Assembly (NCBI RefSeq): GCF_019264355.1
Contig: NZ_JAHVAH010000001.1
Span: 1,844,001-1,908,000, forward strand
Reading direction: 5' to 3'
Source: Sphingomicrobium clamense
GTDB lineage: Bacteria; Pseudomonadota; Alphaproteobacteria; Sphingomonadales; Sphingomonadaceae
Length of the DNA: 64,000 nucleotides
Positions 18,188 through 29,060 of this stretch are shown piece by piece. The notes beneath the pieces were generated by a model. It was not told where the DNA came from and did not search any database. It worked only from the letters and a program-made list of their open reading frames with translations. Both the position numbers and the translations under genes were made by a program. The first letter of the stretch is position 1. Every line of letters begins with the position of its first letter.

Positions 18188-18237
18188 GAAATGGCGCGCC
18201 CGGAAGGATTCGAACCTCCGACCACCTGATTCGTAGT
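18188..18237. repeat. Left attachment site (50-bp direct repeat, tRNA 3' fragment)
   Basis: These 50 bases are identical to 28980-29029 and correspond to the tRNA-Arg 3' half, from the anticodon loop through the encoded CCA plus 4 bases. Beyond 18237 the two copies diverge at once. The left copy lacks the 5' half of the tRNA and is therefore the duplicated attachment-site remnant produced by site-specific integration. Confidence 0.93.
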
Positions 18238-18343
18238 TTCGGATCGGCTGTTGCTCCATTTTGCCGCGTTTTTCTTTTTTGACAGAAAACTCGGGATAAT
18301 GGCAACAATGGCTTGCACGTTCTTGCCTCGCGTTGCCGCTCGT

Positions 18344-18363
18344 GTGATTACTAAGTGATTACT
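18344..18363 (+). repeat. Tandem GTGATTACT repeats before the integrase gene
   Basis: Two identical 9-base copies (18344-18352 and 18355-18363) lie on an 11-base period just before the integrase ribosome site. The spacing puts both on the same DNA face. They could bind an integrase/excisionase arm domain or a repressor; this is inference. Confidence 0.45.
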
Positions 18364-18376
18364 GGAGGACTTTCTG

Positions 18377-19657
18377 ATGGCTGTTCAGAGGATCACAAAA
18401 TCAAGTGTCGATGCACTCAAGCCTGGGCCGCGCGACCAATATATCTGGGACGATCGGCTCAAAGGATTTGGCGTTAAAATCACGCCGGCTGGCGGCATCT
18501 CGTATGTGGTTCAATATCGGCCGAACGGTTCGCGCGGCAATCCGCGGCGAACAACGATCGGGAAACATGGCCCCCTCACCCCGACGCAAGCTCGAGACAA
18601 GGCGGAGGAAACTCTTCGGAACTTGAGGTTGCATGATATCGACCCGATCGAAGAGAAAAGAGCTAAGGCCAAAGCAAAAGTCGACTTGGCGTATCCGGCT
18701 TACGCCAAGCGCTTTGTCGACACTTACGGCAAGCGCAACTGGTCGAGCCATACGCAAGCAGACAACCGGCGCTATCTCACTGCGGCCGATGAGCCTCCAA
18801 TGCAGGCGCTCGGCTGCATGGCAATGCACGAGATCCAGCGGTCGGACATTGCTGCGGTGTTCGATCTGGTGCCTGACGATCAGCCGGGGCGTGCTCGCAA
18901 TCTTTGGGCTGCCCTGCGCAAACTTTTGAATTGGGCAGTGGAGCGCGGCGACATCGATCGTTCACCGGCGGAGGGATTCAAGGGCCCTAAACCCGTCAAG
19001 CCGCGCGATCGGGTTCTGGATGACCGTGAGATAACGCTGGCTTGGCGTGCAGCACACGAACTGGATTATCCGTTCGGACCATTCCTCAGGGTTCTCATCG
19101 CGACTGGCCAACGTCGAAACGAGGTTGCCGGCATGGACTGGCGCGAAGTCGATCGAGACAGCGCATCGTGGACGATCCCCGGCGACAAGACGAAGAACGG
19201 CCAGCCTCATTTCGTGCCGCTAAACGAGCTCGCGATCGCAGCGCTCGATGGCATCGTCGGCGAGGACTGGCCGTCCAGCGGCCTCATTTTCTCGACCACG
19301 GGCAAGACGCCGATCAGCGGGTTTGCTCGAGCCAAGCGGTCGCTGGACGAGGAAATGACCAAGTTGAACGAGGACGAGCCAGTCAATGCGTGGAGGCTTC
19401 ACGATCTGCGGCGAACTTTCGCGACAGGAATGCAGAGGCTAGGGATCCGCTTCGAAGTCACAGAGGCCGCGCTGAATCACATTTCTGGCGCCCGCTCAGG
19501 AGTCGCCGGCGTCTATCAGCGTCATGATTGGCACAATGAGAAGATCGTCGCGATGAAGGCTTGGTCCGATGCACTCATCAGACTTGGCGAAGGGCGCAAA
19601 TCCAAGCTTGGCGATGACGTAAACGAGGGCTCAAACGTGGTTGCGATCAATGCCTAG
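18377..19657 (+). CDS. int: Tyrosine-type site-specific integrase
   Basis: Catalyses integration and excision at the 50-bp tRNA site. The 426-residue protein has an N-terminal DUF4102-type arm-binding domain (WDDRLKGFGVKITPAGGISY), a SAM-like core-binding domain (~115-195) and a catalytic domain with Arg246 (TGQRRNEV), Lys in DKTKNGQPH, His342-Arg345 (LHDLRRTF), His368 (LNHISG) and Tyr380 (VYQRHDW). All catalytic residues are present, so it should be active. A GGAGG ribosome site precedes the ATG. It points into the element and lies 139 bases from the left attachment site. P4-type integrases commonly target tRNA genes. Confidence 0.96.
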   Translation: MAVQRITKSSVDALKPGPRDQYIWDDRLKGFGVKITPAGGISYVVQYRPNGSRGNPRRTTIGKHGPLTPTQARDKAEETLRNLRLHDIDPIEEKRAKAKAKVDLAYPAYAKRFVDTYGKRNWSSHTQADNRRYLTAADEPPMQALGCMAMHEIQRSDIAAVFDLVPDDQPGRARNLWAALRKLLNWAVERGDIDRSPAEGFKGPKPVKPRDRVLDDREITLAWRAAHELDYPFGPFLRVLIATGQRRNEVAGMDWREVDRDSASWTIPGDKTKNGQPHFVPLNELAIAALDGIVGEDWPSSGLIFSTTGKTPISGFARAKRSLDEEMTKLNEDEPVNAWRLHDLRRTFATGMQRLGIRFEVTEAALNHISGARSGVAGVYQRHDWHNEKIVAMKAWSDALIRLGEGRKSKLGDDVNEGSNVVAINA

Positions 19658-20183
19658 TTCGACGCTCGAAATCGATATGAGTGCGCTTGCCGACTTTCCC
19701 GCCGTCGATCGTGAAAAGGTCACATGGGCCATCGAAGTTCACAACGCCAATCTTGATCGGCTGGAGGGTGCGCCAACAACTTCCGAAAGCATCAATTTGA
19801 TGAGGTCTGCCGCGGCCGATTTGAAGAAGGCCAAACACAAATTGGAGCGGGCGAATATGACCAAGATCATGGCCGACACGGAGGCCGAACGCGTCGCTGC
19901 CATCGAACGTGACATCATTGATGAAGCCGACCGGGTGTCCTCATTGAAGCCCGTACAACTCCGAAATCGAGCGTCCATCTGGCTGGTCGCGCACTGCGCA
20001 AGCATATGTTCCGACGCGGGGTATCCGGTCAACGCATCGACGGGTGGCGCGTTATATGCGGTGCTAGCTGTCGTGCACAAAGCCGCCAAAACCGCGAGCC
20101 GGACGGGTAAGGAGCCGCGGATTGAGCACCAAATCCGCTATGCAATGAATGATCGGCTCTTAAGGTCATATCGACCTGGATGA
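19650..20183 (+). CDS. Element protein of unknown function (177 residues)
   Basis: Begins MPSSTLEIDMSALADFPAVD with its ATG 8 bases inside the integrase end, so it is likely coupled to it; an internal Met 12 residues later is an alternative. The middle part (~35-95) is strongly helical and charged (ADLKKAKHKLERANMTKIMA, EAERVAAIERDIIDEADRV), probably a coiled coil. The C-terminal half has Cys and hydrophobic stretches (ASIWLVAHCASICSDAGYPV) and ends basic. I recognise no family. Location next to int suggests a role in element maintenance or excision control, but nothing in the sequence proves this. Confidence 0.7.
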   Translation: MPSSTLEIDMSALADFPAVDREKVTWAIEVHNANLDRLEGAPTTSESINLMRSAAADLKKAKHKLERANMTKIMADTEAERVAAIERDIIDEADRVSSLKPVQLRNRASIWLVAHCASICSDAGYPVNASTGGALYAVLAVVHKAAKTASRTGKEPRIEHQIRYAMNDRLLRSYRPG

Positions 20184-20267
20184 CGGCTCACCTTGCAAAC
20201 CTACCTTAGAAATTGGGGGAGAGTTTCAAGCCTGTTTAGATGGAAGGGCTAGACAAGACGGAGAAAG

Positions 20268-20288
20268 ATGCTCCCTTGAAAGGAGCAT
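20268..20288 (+). promoter_or_regulatory. Hairpin covering the ribosome site of the AlpA-like gene
   Basis: ATGCTCC (20268-20274) and GGAGCAT (20282-20288) form a perfect 7-bp stem with a 7-base loop. The 3' arm contains the Shine-Dalgarno bases (AGGAG, 20281-20285) of the gene starting at 20292. If folded, the RNA would hide the ribosome site, suggesting translational control of the regulator. Confidence 0.5.
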
Positions 20289-20291
20289 GAA

Positions 20292-20489
20292 ATGCGACGA
20301 CTAATGACAGAAGCGGAGGCCTCCATTCGGACGGGGCTGGCGGCTTCCACTCTCCAAAAACAGCGGGTCCGGGGTGACGGTATCCCATATGTGAAGATCG
20401 GGCGAAGCGTCCGTTACGACTCTGATGTCGTGGACGAATGGCTTGATGCTCGGACTGTGTCGTCGACCTCGCAGGCGATCGCCTCATGA
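20292..20489 (+). CDS. AlpA/excisionase-like MerR-type helix-turn-helix protein
   Basis: A 65-residue winged-helix protein. MTEAEASIRTGLAASTLQKQ then IPYVKIGRSVRYDSDVVDEW LDAR follows the classic excisionase/AlpA pattern: helix-turn-helix, a wing with Ile-Gly-Arg-x-Val-Arg-Tyr, and a final helix with WLDAR. In P4-like elements and Gram-negative PICIs, AlpA proteins activate element genes; Xis proteins steer the integrase to excision. It is preceded by AAAGGAG inside a hairpin. Its TGA overlaps the next ATG (ATGA), starting a chain of overlapping small genes. Confidence 0.85.
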   Translation: MRRLMTEAEASIRTGLAASTLQKQRVRGDGIPYVKIGRSVRYDSDVVDEWLDARTVSSTSQAIAS

Positions 20490-20665
20490 CCAGACCGCCC
20501 AAAAAGATGGGGCCCGTTCGGCGGCAGGCCCCGTGTTCCGATCTGGTGACGACCGAGCGAACCTACAGACCCTACTCTGATGGCGGTAAACTCGCAAGGC
20601 GAAGCTGGGCCAATCGTCCTGTCTACGGACGCAATGGCTTCTGGTTGGAGGTTCGCCATGGATAA
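20486..20665 (+). CDS. Small basic element protein (59 residues)
   Basis: Starts MTRPPKKMGPVRRQAPCSDL with ATGA overlap to the AlpA-like gene and ends FWLEVRHG, overlapping the next gene by 8 bases. The product is Arg/Lys-rich with aromatic residues toward the end (TYRPYSDGGKLARRSW, YGRNGFW). It is too short for a confident family call. Support comes from its position in a gene chain where each stop overlaps the following start. It could be a DNA-binding accessory or a regulatory peptide; no function is assigned. Confidence 0.58.
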   Translation: MTRPPKKMGPVRRQAPCSDLVTTERTYRPYSDGGKLARRSWANRPVYGRNGFWLEVRHG

Positions 20666-20921
20666 AAGATCAGCAATCAAAAACGGGAACGATCGAACCT
20701 GGCGACGGCACCTCCGCGGCGATCTTCGGGGCAGCGAGGAGGAATGCCACCTCAAGCGAGTGACGGGCTATTTCGGATACGAGATACCGAACGCTTTTTC
20801 TCTGAGCTGCCTGGTTGCGTCCGGCCATTGGGACGATCTGGCGGATTTGGCCATCTCGGAACAGGAGGGCGGCGTTCTTGTGCTCGACCTCACAGTAGGC
20901 GCCAAGGACGCGAATGATTGA
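20658..20921 (+). CDS. Element protein of unknown function (87 residues)
   Basis: Begins MDKRSAIKNGNDRTWRRHLR, with its ATG inside the end of the previous small gene (8-base overlap) and a GGAGG six bases before it, which supports this start over an in-frame ATG at 20580. The centre CHLKRVTGYFGYEIPNAFSL looks folded, and the C-terminus is acidic and hydrophobic (GGVLVLDLTVGAKDAND). No family recognised. The stop TGA shares a base with the initiator ATG (TGATG), so the chain of coupled translation continues into the replication gene. Confidence 0.62.
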   Translation: MDKRSAIKNGNDRTWRRHLRGDLRGSEEECHLKRVTGYFGYEIPNAFSLSCLVASGHWDDLADLAISEQEGGVLVLDLTVGAKDAND

Positions 20922-21685
20922 TGGCTCGGAAGAAGCGTCATCAGCCGCGCGACCGTGCTGACCTACGCGGCGGGACTTTCATCGGCCTGCCTTCCACCGT
21001 CGCTGACTCGCCAGCCTATGTGGATCTGGAACCCTACGACCGCGCGGTGCTGCTCGAGATCATGCGAGCCTTCAACGGAGGCAACAATGGCAAGATCGGC
21101 ATCAGCTACGCCACGATCGGCAAGCGTCTAGGTAGTCGGAACAACCGGCGCATCTCGCAAGCAATGGGCAGGCTCATCACGCATGGAATGATCGCCGAGC
21201 CTACGGACCACTCATGGACCGAACGACGTGCGCGTGAGTATCGCCTGACGTTTATCAGCACGACCGATGGGCGCGGAATGTCGACCCCGGCGACGAATGA
21301 CTATCGCCACTGGACCCCAGACAGAGAAAAAATCAGCGGTGACGCTCCGACACTAGAGACCCCCTCGTCTGGTGACGCTCAAACACCAGAGCCTGTTTGG
21401 ACTGGTGACGCTGGGACACCAACGACTTTCCATTCTCCCTCTAAGGAGCCGAAAGGGGGGGATGGTCAATCTGGTGACGGAGAGACACTACATATACTTA
21501 AGCCATACGGTGGCGAACAATTGGGGGATGAAAATACCCCCCTTAAATCGGGCGGCCGAATTTGCGACGACTGCGGACAGGCCTTCAAGCCTGGCCCGCA
21601 TCGTCATCAGCGATACTGCGACGAGCGTTGTCGAAGCCGTGCCGAAAAGCGCCGGTTCCGCGAACGGCAGCAGGCGACCGGATGA
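20921..21685 (+). CDS. Winged-helix replication-initiator-like protein with C-terminal zinc motif
   Basis: A 254-residue protein. Residues ~20-105 form a winged helix (DLEPYDRAVLLEIMRAF, ISYATIGKRLGSRNNRRISQ, MGRLITHGMIAEP) resembling the N-terminal DNA-binding domains of phage O-type replication proteins. A Pro/Gly/Asp-rich linker (~120-205) is encoded by iteron DNA (four SGDA-like peptide repeats). The C-terminus has a zinc-binding pattern C215-x2-C218 ... C233-x3-C237, followed by a basic helix RSRAEKRRFRERQQ. No helicase or primase domain is present, so it would need to recruit host DnaB or similar. Initiator identity is inferred from fold plus the embedded repeats. Confidence 0.68.
   Translation: MARKKRHQPRDRADLRGGTFIGLPSTVADSPAYVDLEPYDRAVLLEIMRAFNGGNNGKIGISYATIGKRLGSRNNRRISQAMGRLITHGMIAEPTDHSWTERRAREYRLTFISTTDGRGMSTPATNDYRHWTPDREKISGDAPTLETPSSGDAQTPEPVWTGDAGTPTTFHSPSKEPKGGDGQSGDGETLHILKPYGGEQLGDENTPLKSGGRICDDCGQAFKPGPHRHQRYCDERCRSRAEKRRFRERQQATG
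21338..21488 (+). repeat. Four iterons inside the initiator gene (probable origin)
   Basis: Four 16-base direct repeats start at 21338, 21371, 21404 and 21473; the first three read GGTGACGCTNNNACAC and the fourth GGTGACGGAGAGACAC. Spacings are 33, 33 and 69 bases; 33 is three helical turns. An A+T-rich stretch with CATATACTTAA follows the last copy. This arrangement (iterons within the initiator gene, then an AT-rich unwinding region) is that of lambda O/ori. Confidence 0.7.
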
Positions 21686-22005
21686 TGTCAGACAGGCGGC
21701 TGATCTGTGATGACGAACTTTCGGCGGCAAATTGTTTTCGATGCCGAGCATTTGGTTTGCTCGCGACGATAGATGCCCAGAAGGCCTCCGTCCTAACGTC
21801 CGAAACGACCGCGAGCGATGGATTGCTTAGCAGTGGCAAGCGAAGGGACCTACCCCATCCTGTCACCGCTCCGTGCACGCGCGCGCGAGATCGTCGTGGA
21901 AAATGGCGACGCGCTGATCTACAGTCAGGGTATCGCAATAGGAAAAACTGGCGAAACGGGGCGTCCAGTAATCAAATTGGTAAGCATTTGAGGTGCACAC
22001 GATGA
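21682..22005 (+). CDS. Possible element protein (107 residues), overlapped by an alternative frame
   Basis: Begins MMSDRRLICDDELSAANCFR and links the initiator and terS-like genes by ATGA overlaps at both ends, which argues that it is translated. The first ~45 residues look protein-like (CRAFGLLATIDAQKASVL), but the second half (RRGKWRRADLQSGYRNRKNW) looks like out-of-frame sequence. A 57-residue frame in another phase over the same DNA (21818-21991) looks more natural there. A frameshift or a recoding event between them is possible. No function assigned. Confidence 0.4.
   Translation: MMSDRRLICDDELSAANCFRCRAFGLLATIDAQKASVLTSETTASDGLLSSGKRRDLPHPVTAPCTRARDRRGKWRRADLQSGYRNRKNWRNGASSNQIGKHLRCTR
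21818..21991 (+). CDS. Possible small element protein (57 residues), alternative frame
   Basis: Frame beginning MDCLAVASEGTYPILSPLRA and ending GETGRPVIKLVSI, 10 bases before the terS-like ATG. Its composition (RAREIVVENGDALIYSQG) resembles a real beta-strand/helix protein more than the competing 107-residue frame does over this stretch, but no good ribosome site precedes the ATG. Either this is a separate small gene or it is the correct C-terminal half of the longer frame after a frameshift. Confidence 0.4.
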   Translation: MDCLAVASEGTYPILSPLRARAREIVVENGDALIYSQGIAIGKTGETGRPVIKLVSI

Positions 22006-22424
22006 CGATCTACTCTAAACAACTAGCCGAGCGCATCTGCCAGGCAATCGCTGACGGCCATTCGCTTGCTGCCATCGAGAAGATGGAAAAAATGCCTTGC
22101 AAGCGGACGATTATTCGATGGCGAACCGAACATGCAGAATTTGACGCTGCCTATCGTGACGCCCGAACGGTGGATGCAATAAATGTGGAGGACCAAGTAC
22201 GGCAACTGGTCGAGACCGTTAACTGCAAAGATTCTGCGGCAGCCGCCAGAGAAAAATTCCAAATGCTGAAATGGCTCGCAGCGGTTAAGTCACCTCGAGA
22301 ATACGGCAATCGTACGGAGGTCAGTCATGAGACTCGAATGAACTTGGCTGAGGCCATCAGTGCGGCGCGAAAGCGAGCGGGTATGACTAGTCAGAACATT
22401 TCGCAGCGTTCGTCCAATGAGTAG
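22002..22424 (+). CDS. Terminase small subunit-like protein (Sf6-type)
   Basis: A 140-residue protein: MTIYSKQLAERICQAIADGH, helix-turn-helix (SLAAIEKMEKMPCKRTIIRW), a helical segment (EFDAAYRDARTVDAINVEDQ) and AREKFQMLKWLAAVKSPREYG before a polar tail. The pattern LAERIC..I..G.S...I.....MP....I.RW and the later WLAA...P..YG match small terminase subunits of the Sf6 group, which recognise phage DNA for packaging. No large terminase gene is present, so in this element the protein would redirect a helper phage's terminase or act as a regulator. It ends the plus-strand module; a 283-base gene-free stretch follows before the convergent nuclease gene. Confidence 0.68.
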   Translation: MTIYSKQLAERICQAIADGHSLAAIEKMEKMPCKRTIIRWRTEHAEFDAAYRDARTVDAINVEDQVRQLVETVNCKDSAAAAREKFQMLKWLAAVKSPREYGNRTEVSHETRMNLAEAISAARKRAGMTSQNISQRSSNE

Positions 22425-22707
22425 GGCTGCTGACGGCATGCGCCCCCATTGCTGACTTTCCGGTTCGCTCTTAACCTACCCCAAACCTGCCGTTCAAAAG
22501 CCCAAAGCCGGAGCCCGCTTGATCCAAAACCAATAACCACGAAGCAGATTGCTGCGAAGCTGAGATTGGGATCTTCTCGGCTCACACGCAATCGCTACAG
22601 ATCGAATTTCAAGCGTGGTGCGCTTAGAATAGCGGTTCGGCGGAAAAAGGTAGGTTGGAGTTACTGGCCAGACTTGAATGGCCGAGCCGGCTCTCAACGA
22701 AGCGGCG

Positions 22708-24105
22708 CTAATTTGCCGTTTCAGGGGAAATCGGCTGTCCTCGTTTTTGCGACATCACCTCTGCAGCGTTCGCAGCGATGTGCGAAAGTAGAACTTCCGG
22801 CCCTTTGTCCAAATATCGATCTACGATTGGTCCATTGACAAAGAGAAACTGCAGATGAGTAGTCTGGGTGATTTCTTTCGCGTAGGCGATCGCTTCGCTG
22901 GTGAAATCGCTTGTGGTGACCACCGCCACAACATGTGCTTTCGTGTAGATGGCCAGCCCAACTTCCTTCGCGACATCACCCAAGCCTACACGACCTGCGA
23001 CGCACTTGCATTGGAAGTTCCACCTCGAGAATAATAGGTTTTTCCCTTCCGCCGTGAGATCCACTTCAGCGTAAGCAGTCTCACGGCTTCGCAATCGAAA
23101 AGCACGGGGCTCGATACCAATGTCGAGGATCATTTTGAGAGCTAGGAGCTCTAATCCCAGCCCCCTATCGAACTTCTCGTCGCTTTCGAGCAAACTTTTC
23201 ACATCTGATAGAGGCATGTCGATCTTTGCTCGAAGATCGGCAGGAATGACTTGATCAAAGTCTGGCAAGACTGACTCAATCGGTATGCCCATCAGCCTAG
23301 CTGATGGTTTTATGCTGCCGCTCTTGCCGCCGCGGCCCGCACCCGCGTGTCGAGGGGCTTCCAGCCATCCCGCTAGTGCGAGTGGATTGACTATCTTGGC
23401 CCTCATCTGATCTTCGTCGAAGTGCGCACGATGATGAGCCAAACACTCATCGATGACCCGCTTCGCGGGGATTTCGGTGCCGCCCGTTCCCTCGCTCATT
23501 CGCCTCAGCGCTTGAACAAAAATTTGCTGGTTAAGTGGTAGATCAGAAAAATCTGATCGTTCCGATCCGGAAATACCCAATACCGCCTTCATTCTGGCAT
23601 CGTCCGGAACAGGTGGTTGTCGGCCCTGCTTGGTAAACAAGCCAGCCTCGATCATCCAGTTCAATAGGGTCGTGTGGTCGGTGGTTGCAGTGGACAGGTC
23701 TGTAATGCCAACTCGTTCAAGTTCTTTTTTCAGGGTCGCTTTCGTGACCTGTTCAGTTCTGGTGTTCAGCGACCGGACGGCATCGATTAGAGCCATACCA
23801 TTCATATTATCGACAATATGACGAACGAGCTTCGCCGCCCCATCCTTGGAAGTTTTCGCGGTAGCAATGTCTTTTCCGACCGCTGTCAAAGCGAGAGGAT
23901 CCCGCGTAATTAGACCCAAGTTTGTGAGGGTGGCCGGCACATTCGTACTCGCACGCTTATTGTTAGCGCTGGCGAAGAATACTCTATCCCACTCTTTTAC
24001 GACATCATCCCAATTAGGGGCTTTTGAGGCGACTATCTGCAAAGGCCGACGCACGTCTCCGATTATGCCCGGCGAAAAATCGTTGAATGACGGCAGTCGT
24101 TTCAT
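22708..24105 (-). CDS. Type II restriction endonuclease, PD-(D/E)XK (Mrr-like) fold
   Basis: A 465-residue nuclease and last gene of a four-gene R-M operon, overlapping the methyltransferase gene by ATGA. The C-terminal ~150 residues have the restriction-endonuclease core: helix RGLGLELLALKM with Glu, AYAEVDLTAEGKN with the metal Asp, then FQCKC giving the Q-x-K catalytic pair, and a later KEVGLAIYTKAHVVAVVTT strand region. The N-terminal ~250 residues are helical with probable winged-helix recognition segments (TLLNWMIEAGLFTKQG). It would cut unmethylated DNA at the site protected by the adjacent enzymes. The recognition sequence cannot be read off. Confidence 0.83.
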   Translation of the reverse strand: MKRLPSFNDFSPGIIGDVRRPLQIVASKAPNWDDVVKEWDRVFFASANNKRASTNVPATLTNLGLITRDPLALTAVGKDIATAKTSKDGAAKLVRHIVDNMNGMALIDAVRSLNTRTEQVTKATLKKELERVGITDLSTATTDHTTLLNWMIEAGLFTKQGRQPPVPDDARMKAVLGISGSERSDFSDLPLNQQIFVQALRRMSEGTGGTEIPAKRVIDECLAHHRAHFDEDQMRAKIVNPLALAGWLEAPRHAGAGRGGKSGSIKPSARLMGIPIESVLPDFDQVIPADLRAKIDMPLSDVKSLLESDEKFDRGLGLELLALKMILDIGIEPRAFRLRSRETAYAEVDLTAEGKNLLFSRWNFQCKCVAGRVGLGDVAKEVGLAIYTKAHVVAVVTTSDFTSEAIAYAKEITQTTHLQFLFVNGPIVDRYLDKGPEVLLSHIAANAAEVMSQKRGQPISPETAN

Positions 24106-25151
24106 GCGGCCTCGCAGAGATTTTTACCGATTGCTTCGGAGACGCTCCGTCCGATGGCTGCAGCCAGTTTGGGAGGTACAGCATTCCCGATCTGCCTCCA
24201 TTGCTGCTCGATCGTACCCGCCAGCTGAAACTCATCTGGAAATGTCTGTAAGCGTTTAATCTCCGCGATCCTCAAAATACGATTCCGCCAATGGAATGGC
24301 CCCATATTATTAGAGCGGCGTGCCTGTATCGTCCAAGACGGTAGCTCCGGACTTAGCTTCAGAAGGAACGACCAATATCGTCCTCTCCACTGAAATTTCG
24401 GTTCGGGGTGTCCCCTCTTTTCCGTGAAATATAGATAGTTGTCTCCGGGTGGCACTTGGCAAAGCAAGTCATGGTGTTTCCCGCCTGCAAAGTGCCCACG
24501 GTCACAAGCATTCGCTTCAGTGTCGAGATCTTTTAGAACCTGACCTGAAGTGACCCATGGAAGTTTCCCGTCGCGGGCTTCCTTGTCGTGAGTGGGCTCG
24601 GGCAACTTTATTTGCCCCTCGAGGGACCCAAGAACGAAGCAGCGCTCGCGAATTTGAGGCACACCGAAGTCCGCCGCATTTAAAACGCCCGTCGTCACCT
24701 TATAACCTATTGCCTCTGCGCGTCTTATGATCGTCTCTAACGCCTCCGAATGCACTTTATAAGCCAGGCCTTTGACGTTCTCCAGAATGAAGGCGCGAGG
24801 TCTGAACCAGTCGAGCATCTTCAAATACCCGTCAACTGTTTCCCAACCATTCGGGTCGTCTAAGGCACGCGGCTTGTCCTTCCGGTAAAATCGACTTTTT
24901 GAGAAAGGAGGACATGGTGGGCCACCCGCTATGAGATCGATCTTCTCCGAAATTTTGCCGAGCTTAGCTTGGAAGTCTGCTCGAGATAGCGTGCCGATCC
25001 GACCGCAAAGGAACGGCACTTCAGGTGAATTCACTCGCCATGTTTCTTCACAGAGAGGCTCGGAGTCGGAAGCGAGCACCGTCTTAAAGCCCGCCTCATG
25101 AAGCCCGACATCCAATCCGCCGCAGCCACTGAAAAGACTAATACTACGCAT
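24102..25151 (-). CDS. DNA (cytosine-5) methyltransferase, second of a paralogous pair
   Basis: A 349-residue C5-MTase using S-adenosylmethionine. Motif [16 protein letters not shown], motif [13 protein letters not shown] with the catalytic Cys (PCPPF instead of the usual PCQPF), motif VI ILENVKG, motif [14 protein letters not shown] and motif [15 protein letters not shown] are all present. From the target-recognition region on ([45 protein letters not shown]) it is clearly similar to the neighbouring methyltransferase, so the pair arose by duplication. It overlaps the genes before (8 bases) and after (ATGA). Confidence 0.93.
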
Positions 25152-26340
25152 TCACGCCCTCTTTCACGGCGACTGCGGCAACCACAGCATCGACCATCAC
25201 TCTTGCTAGCGGTGGTGGCACAGCATTGCCCAACTGCCTAACCCGCTCTCTCCGGCTTCCCGCAAATTCGTAATCTGCAGGAAAACCCTGCAGCGCAGCC
25301 ATCTCGACAGTGCGCAGTCGGCGATTGTTCCAATGAAATGGCCCAGTCCAAGGGCCTGGCGATGCTGCAATCGTCCATGAAGGGCGGTCGGGGGACAGCT
25401 TCAGCAAAAAATTCCAGAAACGAGTTTCAGCTACGAATGTCGGGTTCGGATGGCCCGCCCACTCAGTGTGAGCCTTGTAGTTCGAGCCGGGTGGAACTGT
25501 CCTCAGGTGCTCAGCCCAGCGACCCTTAATAATCTCTTCAGGCTCGTGAAATTGCGGCTTATCCAATCCATCAAGAGCCTCCCCAGCTGTGACAGCTGGC
25601 TTCAAGCCACTCTCCCCCTTCAGAGTGTGCGTCGCTTCGGGCGCAACGGGAGCTCCGAACTTACTCCCTAATAGAAAAACCCGCTCCCGTGCCTGAGCCA
25701 CACCGTACTTCGCGGCATTGGCTGTAATCTGGGTGACCTTGTAGCCCGCTGCTTCAGCGGCATTTCGAAACCCCTCGAGCACGGGTCGGTTTCTTGGATG
25801 CTTTATGCTCGGGACATTCTCAAAAACGAACCCTTCAGCGTTGCTCTCGTAAATGAGGCGCCAGAACTCTTCGACGAGAGTTCTACGCGCATCTGGGCGA
25901 GCTTCGGTCGGAGCGGCAGGGCGCTCCATTTCAACACCTGCAGCACGTGCGCGCCTGTATCGAGATTCCTCTCCGTCCTCGACCCAGTAGGCAGCTTTGG
26001 AAAAAGGTTGGCAGGGAGCTCCGCCCACTACGATCAATGGATCTCCGGGCGTAAGGTTTGCGGCAGCCCGAAGCTCCAAACCCGTTAGCTGCGATACGTC
26101 TGCCTCAATTACGGCACCGTGGTACTCCGCGTTAGCTCGAAGCGTTTGGCACGCGGTCGAGTCTATCTCAACGCAAGCTCGGACGTCGCATCCAGCTTGC
26201 GTGGCACCAACGCTTAAACCGCCCGCTCCCGCAAAAAGATCAATGACTGCAAGACCTCTTCCCGACGTTAGCGTGACTGCTGATGAGGAAATGGCCTCCC
26301 GCAATCCGCCGTCGTTCCGATCTATTTCCGGCAACCCCAT
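25144..26340 (-). CDS. DNA (cytosine-5) methyltransferase, first of a paralogous pair
   Basis: A 398-residue C5-MTase. Motif [16 protein letters not shown], motif [13 protein letters not shown] with catalytic Cys, motif [14 protein letters not shown], motif [14 protein letters not shown] and motif [15 protein letters not shown] are intact. Between motifs IV and VI it has an extra ~40-residue insert ([20 protein letters not shown]) missing from its paralogue. Two C5-MTases with one nuclease are known for type II systems with an asymmetric site, where each enzyme modifies one strand; I infer the same here. It starts 3 bases after the RHH regulator gene. Confidence 0.94.
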
Positions 26341-26343
26341 TTC

Positions 26344-26529
26344 TTAGCTCCGTCCGCGTAGGTCGAGTGGCAGCTGCGTTTCTTCGATGCCATCAATGAG
26401 AAGATCGACCGCGTATCTCACGAGCCACGCGACGCTCACCCGATTGCGCTGCGCCAATTCTTTAAGGGCGGCCTCCTGTGATCGAGTCAGTGATGCGGTG
26501 ACCCTGACTATCCCCTCATCTGCGATCAT
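26344..26529 (-). CDS. Ribbon-helix-helix regulator of the R-M operon
   Basis: A 61-residue protein with the CopG/Arc-like ribbon-helix-helix pattern: strand IVRVTASLTRSQEAALKELA, then QRNRVSVAWLVRYAVDLLID. The ATG at 26529 is chosen because GGAG lies 8-9 bases before it; an upstream GTG at 26562 would add a non-family extension. It is the first gene of the operon and 3 bases before the first methyltransferase gene. Control proteins of R-M systems delay nuclease expression; an RHH type here is plausible, and a repeat upstream could be its operator. Confidence 0.8.
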   Translation of the reverse strand: MIADEGIVRVTASLTRSQEAALKELAQRNRVSVAWLVRYAVDLLIDGIEETQLPLDLRGRS

Positions 26530-26564
26530 CAAAAATGCTCCATATCCCGCAACTGGCGTCACAC

Positions 26565-26588
26565 TGCATCATGCATCAAAATGATGCA
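26565..26588 (-). promoter_or_regulatory. TGCATCA repeats: probable operator of the R-M operon
   Basis: Two head-to-tail TGCATCA copies (26565-26571, 26572-26578) and, 3 bases further, the inverted TGATGCA (26582-26588), giving a perfect 7-bp-arm palindrome with one extra half-site. It lies 36-60 bases before the RHH start codon. Repeated short half-sites are the normal binding pattern of ribbon-helix-helix proteins. Confidence 0.62.
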
Positions 26589-26933
26589 AGAACGGAACAT
26601 TTAGTGATCATGGCTAATTGCCGTGTAGCTGACTACTCAGACGATTGAAGGCGCCTTGGCGCCGCGTCCGCTAACACAGCGCGCCGACCAATAAGCGGAC
26701 ACTCGGATTACGGCCCATTAGCCGTCGAACCTCTCGGTGGAACGAGAGGCCCTATCGAACGGCCGGAATGGGGTGGAAAGCGGACGCCCGTCCAAAATAA
26801 AACAGCGTGAACCACAAATGCCCGTGTCTCCACAAATATGTTAATTTGTGTTAAAGGCCCCCGATTGGAAACGAGAACAGAAAGTTCGCCTTTCCCTGTA
26901 GGCGTAGCAAAAACGTTTAACAGGAGGGACGAA
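26589..26933. other. Intergenic region with a CACAAAT palindrome before the propeller gene
   Basis: 345 bases without a supportable gene between the divergent R-M operon and the propeller-protein gene. It contains CACAAAT (26831-26837) / ATTTGTG (26844-26850), a 7-bp inverted repeat with a 6-base spacer, and another CCACAAAT copy about 17 bases upstream. It probably carries the promoter and operator of the gene at 26934. No clear -35/-10 pair stood out. Confidence 0.5.
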
Positions 26934-27893
26934 GTGTTTCCGAAACTTACCGCTTTCAGCTTGCTATCCTTAGCCTGTGCTACGATCGCACTTGCAGAGC
27001 CGCCAGCCGGAAAAGGAAAGCCAGACAAGGGAGGCGGCGGCGACGGCTCTCCGTCATCTTTCGACCCAGAAATCCTTTACCAGTACAACGGCCAACTTCG
27101 TTTCGCGAACCTCGCCGGCGATCAAGCAGTCCTAGTACACGAGAACGCGAGCTTAAATGGTTTCGACCTGTCAAGCGATGTGTCGAAGCGCATTGTTTAT
27201 ACCGACGGAGATCTTTTTCTGCGGACATGGCAGGTAGCGGACCCCGAGAGTGCTTTTCTCAGCGAGCCGACGCAGGTCACGAGCGGATACCGCGTAGTCG
27301 ACCCGGATTTCTCTCCCGACGATCGGCGGGTGGTCTTCACTGATGGCGCGCGTGGCATCTTCATGGTCGACCTGGATACATCGGATGTCGTCACGTTTGT
27401 GACGCCGATCGAGGCCTTCTACCTTCGTTCGCCGCGCTGGAGCCCAGATGGAACGTCGGTCGTATTTTATGGGGGTTACGAGGGTGACCGAGCACTTTGG
27501 CGGCTTGATCTCACCGATTTGTTGGATGTCTCGCAAAGTCAGCGGCCCACGCCAAAAAGGATTGCGACCCAAGGGGTCGACTTCGACGACCAGTTTCTCG
27601 ATATTTCCCGTCCCAAAGACGGCAGTGACCCGGTCATTGCAATCAGCAGTGTGGGACCGGAAAAACGACTTGCCTTATTGAAGCTCGATGGTTCCCCAGC
27701 CCCAGTCGTCCAAACGGTCGAAGGCAAAATCTGGGGCTTCAACTGTGACAATACGGCCGTGATCCATCGCGACCTTTCGGGTAGGAAAGCGGTCATTTCG
27801 ATCACCCAACTAAGTAACGGCGCTAGAGAGATTTGGCTGCGAGGTGACAAAGCGGGGACCAAGACCGATTGGCTGCCAAAGGCCGATTGCTAA
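26934..27893 (+). CDS. Secreted TolB-like beta-propeller protein
   Basis: A 319-residue exported protein starting at GTG 26934, behind a perfect AGGAGG six bases upstream. Residues 1-21 (MFPKLTAFSLLSLACATIAL) form a signal peptide cleaved near LAEPP, followed by a Gly/Lys linker (GKGKPDKGGGGDG). The body holds WD40/PD40-type blades with TolB-like signatures VVDPDFSPDDRRVVFTDG and LRSPRWSPDGTSVVFYGG. It likely works as a periplasmic or surface protein-binding platform. The nearest-family function is unknown. As cargo of a mobile element beside an R-M operon, it might relate to surface defence or exclusion, but this is speculative. Confidence 0.75.
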   Translation: MFPKLTAFSLLSLACATIALAEPPAGKGKPDKGGGGDGSPSSFDPEILYQYNGQLRFANLAGDQAVLVHENASLNGFDLSSDVSKRIVYTDGDLFLRTWQVADPESAFLSEPTQVTSGYRVVDPDFSPDDRRVVFTDGARGIFMVDLDTSDVVTFVTPIEAFYLRSPRWSPDGTSVVFYGGYEGDRALWRLDLTDLLDVSQSQRPTPKRIATQGVDFDDQFLDISRPKDGSDPVIAISSVGPEKRLALLKLDGSPAPVVQTVEGKIWGFNCDNTAVIHRDLSGRKAVISITQLSNGAREIWLRGDKAGTKTDWLPKADC

Positions 27894-28241
27894 ATGTCGA
27901 TTACAGTTTGGCTACAAATGCTAGCATCGATGATAGAGGTTAGCTGCCCTGATCTTCAGAGATCGGAATGTGCAGTTTCGATTGAGCGTTCCGAAGGCTT
28001 AGTCTGGGTTGAAAGAAGAGCTCAGGAGAGCGTTGGACCGGTCCGATACGGTCGCAGAACGGTGCATCCGGCCGGACTGCTGGATGTTGAAGTTGTCGCG
28101 GTCCCCTACCGACCCCCTCTCATGTCCGACAAACGCCCACCCCCGCTAAAAGACCTCCGGGGCGACCCGGCCGCGCAGGAGGCGTTCGACCGAGGCGCCG
28201 TGCCTGGCGACTTTGTCTCGCCACCAGCAGCCATTCGTTGA
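27894..28241 (+). CDS. Hypothetical element protein (115 residues), weak support
   Basis: The ATG follows directly after the TAA of the propeller gene. The first ~75 residues (MSITVWLQMLASMIEVSCPD) are unlike any family I know. The last 39 residues, from an internal Met at 28122 (MSDKRPPPLKDLRGDPAAQE and on to FDRGAVPGDF), look like a conserved-type short domain and may be the true gene product. No strong ribosome site precedes either start. Treat as tentative. Confidence 0.35.
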   Translation: MSITVWLQMLASMIEVSCPDLQRSECAVSIERSEGLVWVERRAQESVGPVRYGRRTVHPAGLLDVEVVAVPYRPPLMSDKRPPPLKDLRGDPAAQEAFDRGAVPGDFVSPPAAIR

Positions 28242-28426
28242 GGACACGGGACTTTGAGCGACGATGTTGTTGAAGAACTGCTGAGCTTTGTGTCCGCACT
28301 TTGGGTCGTTCGCTGCCTGGTCGCTTTCGGGGTAGTTTGCGGACCTTCAATGCAATCTAATGTTCTCCGTGCTAGCTATTTTGCATCAGCAAAGACCAAA
28401 TCAATTCATTGCGTGAGGAGGATTTC

Positions 28427-28612
28427 ATGCCCGAGGAGCAGACGCAGGTCGTGAATGGCGACAAATGCAAGGTCAGTGCCGGAGTCCACAAAGGCAAGAC
28501 AGGACTGGTGGAGGACCTTAATCGCAGCAAGGGGGGTAATCTGACGATTACCGTTCGTCAGGACGATGGCACTCGCTTCAAAACTCTTGCGCGAAGCGTT
28601 GAGAAAATCTGA
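28427..28612 (+). CDS. Small KOW-motif protein
   Basis: A 61-residue protein starting at ATG 28427 with GAGGAGG (28415-28421) five bases upstream. The segment GDKCKVSAGVHKGKTGLVED has the KOW pattern (Val-x-x-Gly-x-x-Lys-Gly-Lys-x-Gly-x-Val) found in ribosomal protein L24 and NusG, here as almost the entire protein, ending with a strand-rich part (NLTITVRQDDGTRFKTLARS). KOW motifs bind RNA or proteins. The role in the element is unknown; an effect on transcription or translation of host or phage is conceivable. It is the last gene before the right end. Confidence 0.72.
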   Translation: MPEEQTQVVNGDKCKVSAGVHKGKTGLVEDLNRSKGGNLTITVRQDDGTRFKTLARSVEKI

Positions 28613-28928
28613 ATTGCTTAGGTCCGCAATTGGGTCGTTAGCGGTCGTTGAGGCCACGCTCTGGCCGAACGGCTGATTTTATAGATTGTGATACCAAGAA
28701 CGGACGGTCTTCTACCGGCCCAAGATCTCCCCCAATCGACAACGGTAACGGCGCTACCCTTGATGGAATTAGCTAGCTCACTGCAATAGCGATTTTCCAT
28801 TTCCACCACGTCTAGGCACGTTCCGAATCGCAATTGGAACGTCTAGGCACGTTCCGAATCGCAATTGGCCGTGGCGGATGCGTTTTCGCAAATCCTACTC
28901 GATTGCTTACCATTTGGTTACTGAACGC
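28613..28928. repeat. Gene-free right end of the element with a 31-base tandem repeat
   Basis: No supportable gene. A 30-base unit beginning ACGTCTAGGCACGTTCCGAA and ending CAATTGG occurs twice, at 28808-28837 and 28839-28868, one base apart. ACGTTCC/GGAACGT inverted arms (28818-28824, 28836-28842) link the two copies, and GCAATTGG occurs a third time near 28630. The repeats end 111 bases from the right attachment site, where arm-type integrase sites or excisionase sites would be expected. Confidence 0.6.
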
Positions 28929-28955
28929 AAAAACCCCCGCCACATTGGGCGGGGG
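28929..28955 (-). terminator. Element-borne terminator now following tRNA-Arg
   Basis: On the minus strand CCCCCGCC (28955-28948) and GGCGGGGG (28941-28934) form a perfect 8-bp G+C stem with a 6-base loop, followed by TTTTT (28933-28929): a textbook rho-independent terminator. It lies 29 bases past the tRNA 3' end, inside the element, and replaces the original terminator that integration moved to 18134-18169. Confidence 0.85.
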
Positions 28956-28979
28956 AAATGCAAGCTAAGTGCTTGAGAA

Positions 28980-29029
28980 GAAATGGCGCGCCCGGAAGGA
29001 TTCGAACCTCCGACCACCTGATTCGTAGT
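28980..29029. repeat. Right attachment site (50-bp direct repeat within tRNA-Arg)
   Basis: Identical to 18188-18237. It covers the tRNA-Arg 3' half from the anticodon loop to the CCA and 4 more bases. Because the element supplies the same 3' half, the tRNA gene stays whole after integration. Confidence 0.93.
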
Positions 29030-29060
29030 CAGGTACTCTATCCAGCTGAGCTACGGGCGC
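28984..29060 (-). tRNA. tRNA-Arg (anticodon ACG)
   Basis: A 77-base cloverleaf read on the minus strand: acceptor GCGCCCG/CGGGCGC, D-arm GCTCAGCTGGATAGAGT, anticodon arm CCTGA-CTACGAA-TCAGG with ACG, T-arm GGAGG-TTCGAAT-CCTTCC type, discriminator G and encoded CCA. ACG is the tRNA whose first base is edited to inosine to read CGU/CGC/CGA. It is the integration target of the element to its left. Confidence 0.96.

Follow-up and report, generated by a model that had tools for sequence, protein, structure and literature searches.

What kind of mobile element is the insertion at positions 18188-29029 of the DNA studied here, and would it depend on a phage? The window, the whole stretch of 64,000 nucleotides that was analysed, is G000:C1:1844001-1908000 of the 2.2-Mb genome of Sphingomicrobium clamense. 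A preliminary description had proposed a phage-inducible chromosomal island (PICI) carrying a restriction-modification (R-M) operon. Its account of the gene content was right: the att repeats, integrase (Int), AlpA-like protein, small terminase subunit (TerS) and R-M operon were recovered, with matches in family scans (Table 1). Our analysis indicates that the element is probably a phage satellite, of a family that is widespread in Sphingomonadaceae.

The element is ~10.8 kb long and is flanked by perfect 50-bp direct repeats 10,792 bp apart. Judged by sequence, the insertion point is the 3' part of tRNA-Arg(acg). In two genus mates (G074 and G019) the left and right flank genes adjoin around one tRNA-Arg(acg), so the element is an insertion. 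The G+C content per kb is 52-58% in the element, 64-67% in the 2 kb flanking it to the left and right, and 60-68% elsewhere. As the preliminary description had stated, the catalytic residues of Int are in place (TGQRRNE at 243, HDLR at 342, HIS at 368 and YQRH at 380). The description had also called the locus a site-specific, satellite-type element unable to make virions. This holds up: no match to portal, capsid, tail or large terminase (TerL) genes was found among the window open reading frames (ORFs) scanned singly (ten against Pfam, ten against PHROGs), and the relatives of the element include tail-less capsid-forming ones. For the pooled family scan of the window, the first 25 of 159 families were listed.

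The putative replication initiator, whose own annotation is weak (phrog_391 'replication initiation O-like', E 0.036; zf-CGNR 0.0055, below cut-off), provides a marker for such elements. Its structure model has high confidence for most of residues 20-90 and scores below 50 for most of residues 139-209. Relatives of its sequence occur in 38 of 397 Sphingomonadaceae genomes, at 44 or more places in 25 of 96 genera; these are lower bounds, at most six candidates having been scored per genome. The contexts of 43 of the 44 places were read. An integrase lies within 10.5 kb of the initiator in 41 of them and within 6 kb in 37, the remaining two being near contig ends. The expectation that the initiator recurs in related genomes with an integrase and differing cargo was thus borne out in many sphingomonads. 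None of TerL, the major capsid protein (MCP) and portal was found in 33 of the 43 contexts. Three hold all three genes, one holds TerL and MCP (cut by a contig end), five MCP without TerL and one portal only. A tree set of 68 initiators, classed at a stricter cut-off, comprises 15 loci with a full head, two with MCP and portal, four with MCP only, 44 with none and three that are cut.

The preliminary description had also given the initiator gene internal iterons. Its four GGTGACG copies are not significant by themselves (codon-shuffle p 0.125), and their spacings of 33, 33 and 69 are all multiples of three, so that a protein repeat could account for them. Across the family, such repeats exceed the shuffled expectation. 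An 8-mer occurs at least three times in 46 of 68 initiator genes (shuffle mean 10.6, maximum 18). With neighbouring 8-mers counted separately, repeated 8-mers take up 753 positions at nucleotides 380-620 of the 68 genes (shuffle mean 11.4, maximum 23) and 118 positions elsewhere in them (mean 29.4, maximum 55). In several members the spacings include values not divisible by three. On sequence grounds, the window repeats are in the family's usual in-gene place and are candidate iterons. The window element, with in-gene repeats in an initiator beside an integrase, belongs to this family.

Some relatives carry head genes within short borders. Head modules lie within tRNA-bounded elements of 10.3-10.8 kb in L028, L109, L130 and L036. 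L028 was read by PHROGs (TerL 1.3e-136, MCP 1e-65, portal 1.6e-87, adaptors and HNH), as was L036 (TerL 2.7e-48, HNH, MCP 2.5e-14 and connectors, the portal not being recognised); L109 and L130 were read by our own profiles, and the genes beyond their repeats appear chromosomal by eye. Overall, tRNA-overlapping repeats mark the borders of 19 of the 70 initiator loci; in five of these they are only 18-22 nt long. The eight MCP-bearing bounded elements all measure 10,033-10,847 bp, a near-equality that a fixed head size would explain. The eleven without MCP measure between 3,594 and 12,280 bp; three of these, the window element included, are 10.2-10.8 kb long, and the likeness in size of the window element to the MCP-bearing group may be chance. 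Two further observations concern other phage-like genes. L013 (3268-14401) has an initiator and int beside a 1598-aa protein and smaller ones, by eye podoviral ejection-like, with no capsid genes seen. A tape-measure-like gene is present in L027 (13637-16255) and L103 (4917-7562), with no tail set seen.

How closely alike cores come to hold different genes is best seen in L036 (TerL and MCP) and L103 (MCP and the tape-measure gene, without TerL), which share the target tRNA-Arg(tct). Likeness is 89.9% along 1,253 bp at int and 93.2% along 866 bp at the initiator, and blastn aligned no DNA from 3890 to 10690 of L036, the block between initiator and attR. Among relatives, a similar core is accompanied in some by a complete head module and in others by a capsid gene in the absence of TerL, by a different TerS or by defence genes; one of those with a capsid gene and no TerL has an unrelated TerS. 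Differing blocks beside such similar cores favour swapping over decay. When full-head status is mapped on the tree of initiators, it needs 13 changes, with at least six forced by starred branches; shuffled labels give 13.7, hardly more. The nearest relative of the window initiator is that of L012, an MCP-only element, at 61% identity, with DNA likeness at the initiator only. These sequence comparisons suggest that integration-replication core and packaging/cargo block act as units that can be exchanged. The recurrence of the initiator with an integrase and different cargo, the relatives resembling capsid-forming PICIs (cfPICIs) and the block swap strengthen the satellite reading.

The link to a helper phage would be TerS. 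Its ORF is open, full length and on the initiator strand; by homology it is a small terminase subunit that may redirect helper packaging, and we infer hijacking of a helper from it. In the genus, PF20901 exceeds the cut-off in four of 71 genomes. A TerS without TerL is found again in family locus L105, where it is unrelated (phrog_12559, 7.9e-37), and L097 has a weak TerS match (phrog_2538, 6.3e-06). According to PMC10690885, some Staphylococcus aureus pathogenicity islands (SaPIs) use their own TerS at pac sites, and proteobacterial PICIs use Rpp to target the TerS of the phage at cos sites. An alphaproteobacterial element with its own Sf6-type TerS would therefore follow a SaPI-like strategy. 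A search of the S. clamense genome for TerL family phrog_2 and portal family phrog_12 was negative (phrog_9 lay outside this search); among 14 control genomes, 11 matched phrog_2 and four phrog_12. The helper would thus come from outside, as for the phage-inducible chromosomal minimalist islands (PICMIs), whose known helpers are virulent phages according to PMC10803314. A separate 14.1-kb repeat-bounded element at tRNA-Arg(tct), L018 (773-14939, in G075), has int and an Sf6-type TerS (PF20901); by eye it also has primase-like and TerL-like genes, with no portal or capsid seen.

Several observations weigh against a satellite. The Sf6-type TerS is in no other initiator locus of the family, and an AlpA-like or related helix-turn-helix (HTH) gene was recognised by our own profiles in only 14 of 43 contexts. 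The int-alpA-initiator-TerS order is accordingly not the single conserved block that had been predicted, and this part of the core is either less constant or less well detected; our confidence in the satellite reading, and in the alternating states proposed below, is lowered for this reason. The preliminary description had regarded homologues confined to prophages or conjugative elements as telling against it. TerS has relatives in 68 records of ordinary phages. The window initiator, in contrast, had no match by tblastn at 1e-3 in 50,697 phage records or 72,556 plasmid records, although distant relatives of it sit in 36-47-kb viral contigs. When three of its relatives were compared with the phage records, two matched none and one matched a single 16.2-kb record. 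That record, L157 (PP003913.1, 'Pseudomonas phage'), is annotated with an integrase, cox, an O-like protein and a primase, and its annotation lists no virion gene; the record may represent an island and not a phage.

These points leave room for an integrative defence island with autonomous excision and replication, in which TerS is a stray phage gene and which is transferred by transformation, vesicles or generalized transduction. The many family contexts without the head genes sought, the R-M and other DNA-modification genes in several members, the host genome without phrog_2 or phrog_12 and the isolation of the Sf6-type TerS are consistent with it. However, head modules occur in members whose core is similar, TerS is open, full length and on the initiator strand, and L105 repeats the combination of a TerS without TerL. 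We consider such an island unlikely, though it is the strongest of the alternatives. Less likely still is a decayed prophage that retained int, xis, an O-like initiator and terS and acquired cargo. Phage families give the best matches of Int, the AlpA-like protein and TerS, and the viral contigs noted above fit a prophage origin as well; against this stand the perfect att repeats and the kept Int residues, the recurrence of small bounded elements with its narrow size range in the MCP-bearing group, and the evidence for swapping. A mobilizable, conjugation-dependent element is very improbable: an integrase and R-M cargo at a tRNA are usual for such islands too, but no relaxase was found among ten window proteins scanned against Pfam (other small ORFs were outside that one-by-one scan) and the initiator matched no plasmid record.

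If the element is a satellite, to which known type does it belong? Canonical Gram-negative PICIs carry a primase-replicase. Among the window ORFs scanned against Pfam and PHROGs no primase or primase-replicase was matched, and an O-like/DnaD-like initiator with in-gene repeats is found instead, together with the Sf6-type TerS. Shared with these PICIs are the small, site-specific, att-bounded island with an integrase, the lack of any virion gene found and, by homology, a putative packaging gene and a putative AlpA regulator downstream of int, a Gram-negative PICI feature according to PMC11773190. cfPICIs encode their own capsid, protease, portal, connectors, terminases and HNH, as described in PMC10690885. 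Relatives L028, L034, L035, L109 and L130 resemble them in having int, HTH, initiator, HNH, TerL, MCP, protease, portal and connector (own profiles), with no tail set seen. A difference is that only the HNH proteins match a TerS family in L028 and L036 (phrog_4581, 6.3e-05 and 1.3e-09), and the window element differs in that head genes were found in its relatives and none in itself. Lacking both the primase-replicase and an own head among the genes found, the element is assigned to neither type; of the proposed PICI identity, the satellite part is retained and the canonical type is not.

PICMIs of Vibrionaceae have int, an int-overlapping gene of many families, alpA and a replication gene, with prim and a fis site, according to PMC10803314. 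The window element shows the same order, with orf2 in the position of the PICMI gene iolg. It differs in the absence of a primase among the genes found, in its tRNA-Arg site as opposed to the fis site and in host order, and the overlapping ORFs are mostly dissimilar. The int, alpA, prim and fis combination was not found in it. SaPIs differ from the window element in host phylum, cargo and replication module. Those with their own TerS share with it a satellite-encoded TerS, according to PMC10690885.

The remaining core and cargo genes are listed in Table 1. The core runs int, orf2, AlpA-like gene, two small ORFs and initiator. The AlpA-like protein matches HTH_17 at 27.8 bits, just above the cut-off of 27. 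orf2 has no Pfam or PHROG family and homologue searches with it were negative; orf5 had no match in 70 other genomes of the genus. In 17 of the 31 family loci whose int and initiator are codirectional, an ORF begins between -8 and +13 nt relative to the int stop (no chance control). Sixteen of these 17 ORFs were compared: the only clear resemblance is between those of L100 and L101, to which that of L119 is weakly linked, and most are unlike. The reading frames of the R-M operon, which encode two C5 methylases and an Mrr-type nuclease, overlap, and a ribbon-helix-helix gene precedes them. R-M cargo in other members includes Type I and MmeI-type families (pooled Pfam scan), which the sizes and order of the genes place in L115 and L124, and L118 has HerA-type and methylase domains. 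Around the KOW-like ORF, window 28289-28639 aligns over 352 bp at 98.9% identity with L156 11554-11904, a copy at G000:C1 near 119.6 kb and ~5 kb from another integrase gene.

Table 1. Features of the element and its insertion site (window positions).
Feature	Position	Strand	Evidence or remark
attL	18188..18237		50-bp direct repeat, identical to 28980-29029
Tyrosine integrase Int	18377..19657	+	PF00589 1.7e-13, PF13356; phrog_1 1.6e-52
orf2, 177 aa	19650..20183	+	8-nt overlap with int stop
AlpA/Xis-like regulator, 65 aa	20292..20489	+	HTH_17 3e-06; phrog_66 3.3e-08
Small ORF, 59 aa	20486..20665	+	No match in PHROG scan
orf5, 87 aa	20658..20921	+	No family in Pfam/PHROG scans
Putative replication initiator	20921..21685	+	Family A2; winged-helix part, disordered linker, zinc-finger-like C-terminal end
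GGTGACG x4	21338, 21371, 21404, 21473 (21338..21479)	+	Inside initiator gene; candidate iterons/origin
TerS, Sf6-type small terminase subunit	21993..22424	+	PF20901 9.5e-24; phrog_1482 1.1e-22; PDB Sf6 gp1 3.4e-11
Restriction endonuclease, Mrr_cat domain	22708..24105	-	PF04471 1e-08
C5-cytosine methyltransferase M2	24102..25151	-	PF00145 8.7e-56
C5-cytosine methyltransferase M1	25144..26340	-	PF00145 5.8e-49
Ribbon-helix-helix protein, possible R-M controller	26344..26562	-	RHH_1 5.9e-05
TolB-like beta-propeller protein (cargo)	26838..27893	+	TIGR02800 partial match 1.1e-06, far below cut-off
Small KOW-like ORF	28409..28612	+	Weak NCBIfam match 0.0056; 'KOW' is our reading
Two 30-bp tandem repeats	28808..28868		Just inside attR; possible integrase arm or regulator sites
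attR	28980..29029		50-bp repeat overlapping tRNA-Arg(acg)
tRNA-Arg(acg)	28984..29060	-	Integration target

In the mechanism that we propose for the satellite, infection by a podovirus-like helper (Sf6/P22-type, headful) would lead AlpA and Int to excise the element. The initiator would bind the repeats in its own gene and start replication with host proteins. The element's TerS, together with TerL and capsid of the helper, would then initiate packaging from a pac site that the element carries. Protection of the carrier from other phages would fall to the R-M operon.

Among the literature matches listed, there was no report of phage satellites in sphingomonads. With the initiator as marker, roughly a tenth of the sampled Sphingomonadaceae genomes yield satellite candidates (38/397). 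We tentatively propose, at a little short of even odds, that the sphingomonad 'PICI' and 'capsid-forming PICI' are states of one satellite and not separate lineages. The slot between initiator/origin and attR would be exchanged, and the element would alternate between own heads, capsid protein only, TerS only and defence cargo alone. Alike cores with and without head genes are natural pairs, which would make the relation between capsid-forming and capsid-stealing satellites directly testable. The sequences suggest a family of sphingomonad satellites in which an integration-replication core is combined with an exchangeable slot for packaging genes or cargo, and such parasites may change strategy by swapping one gene block.

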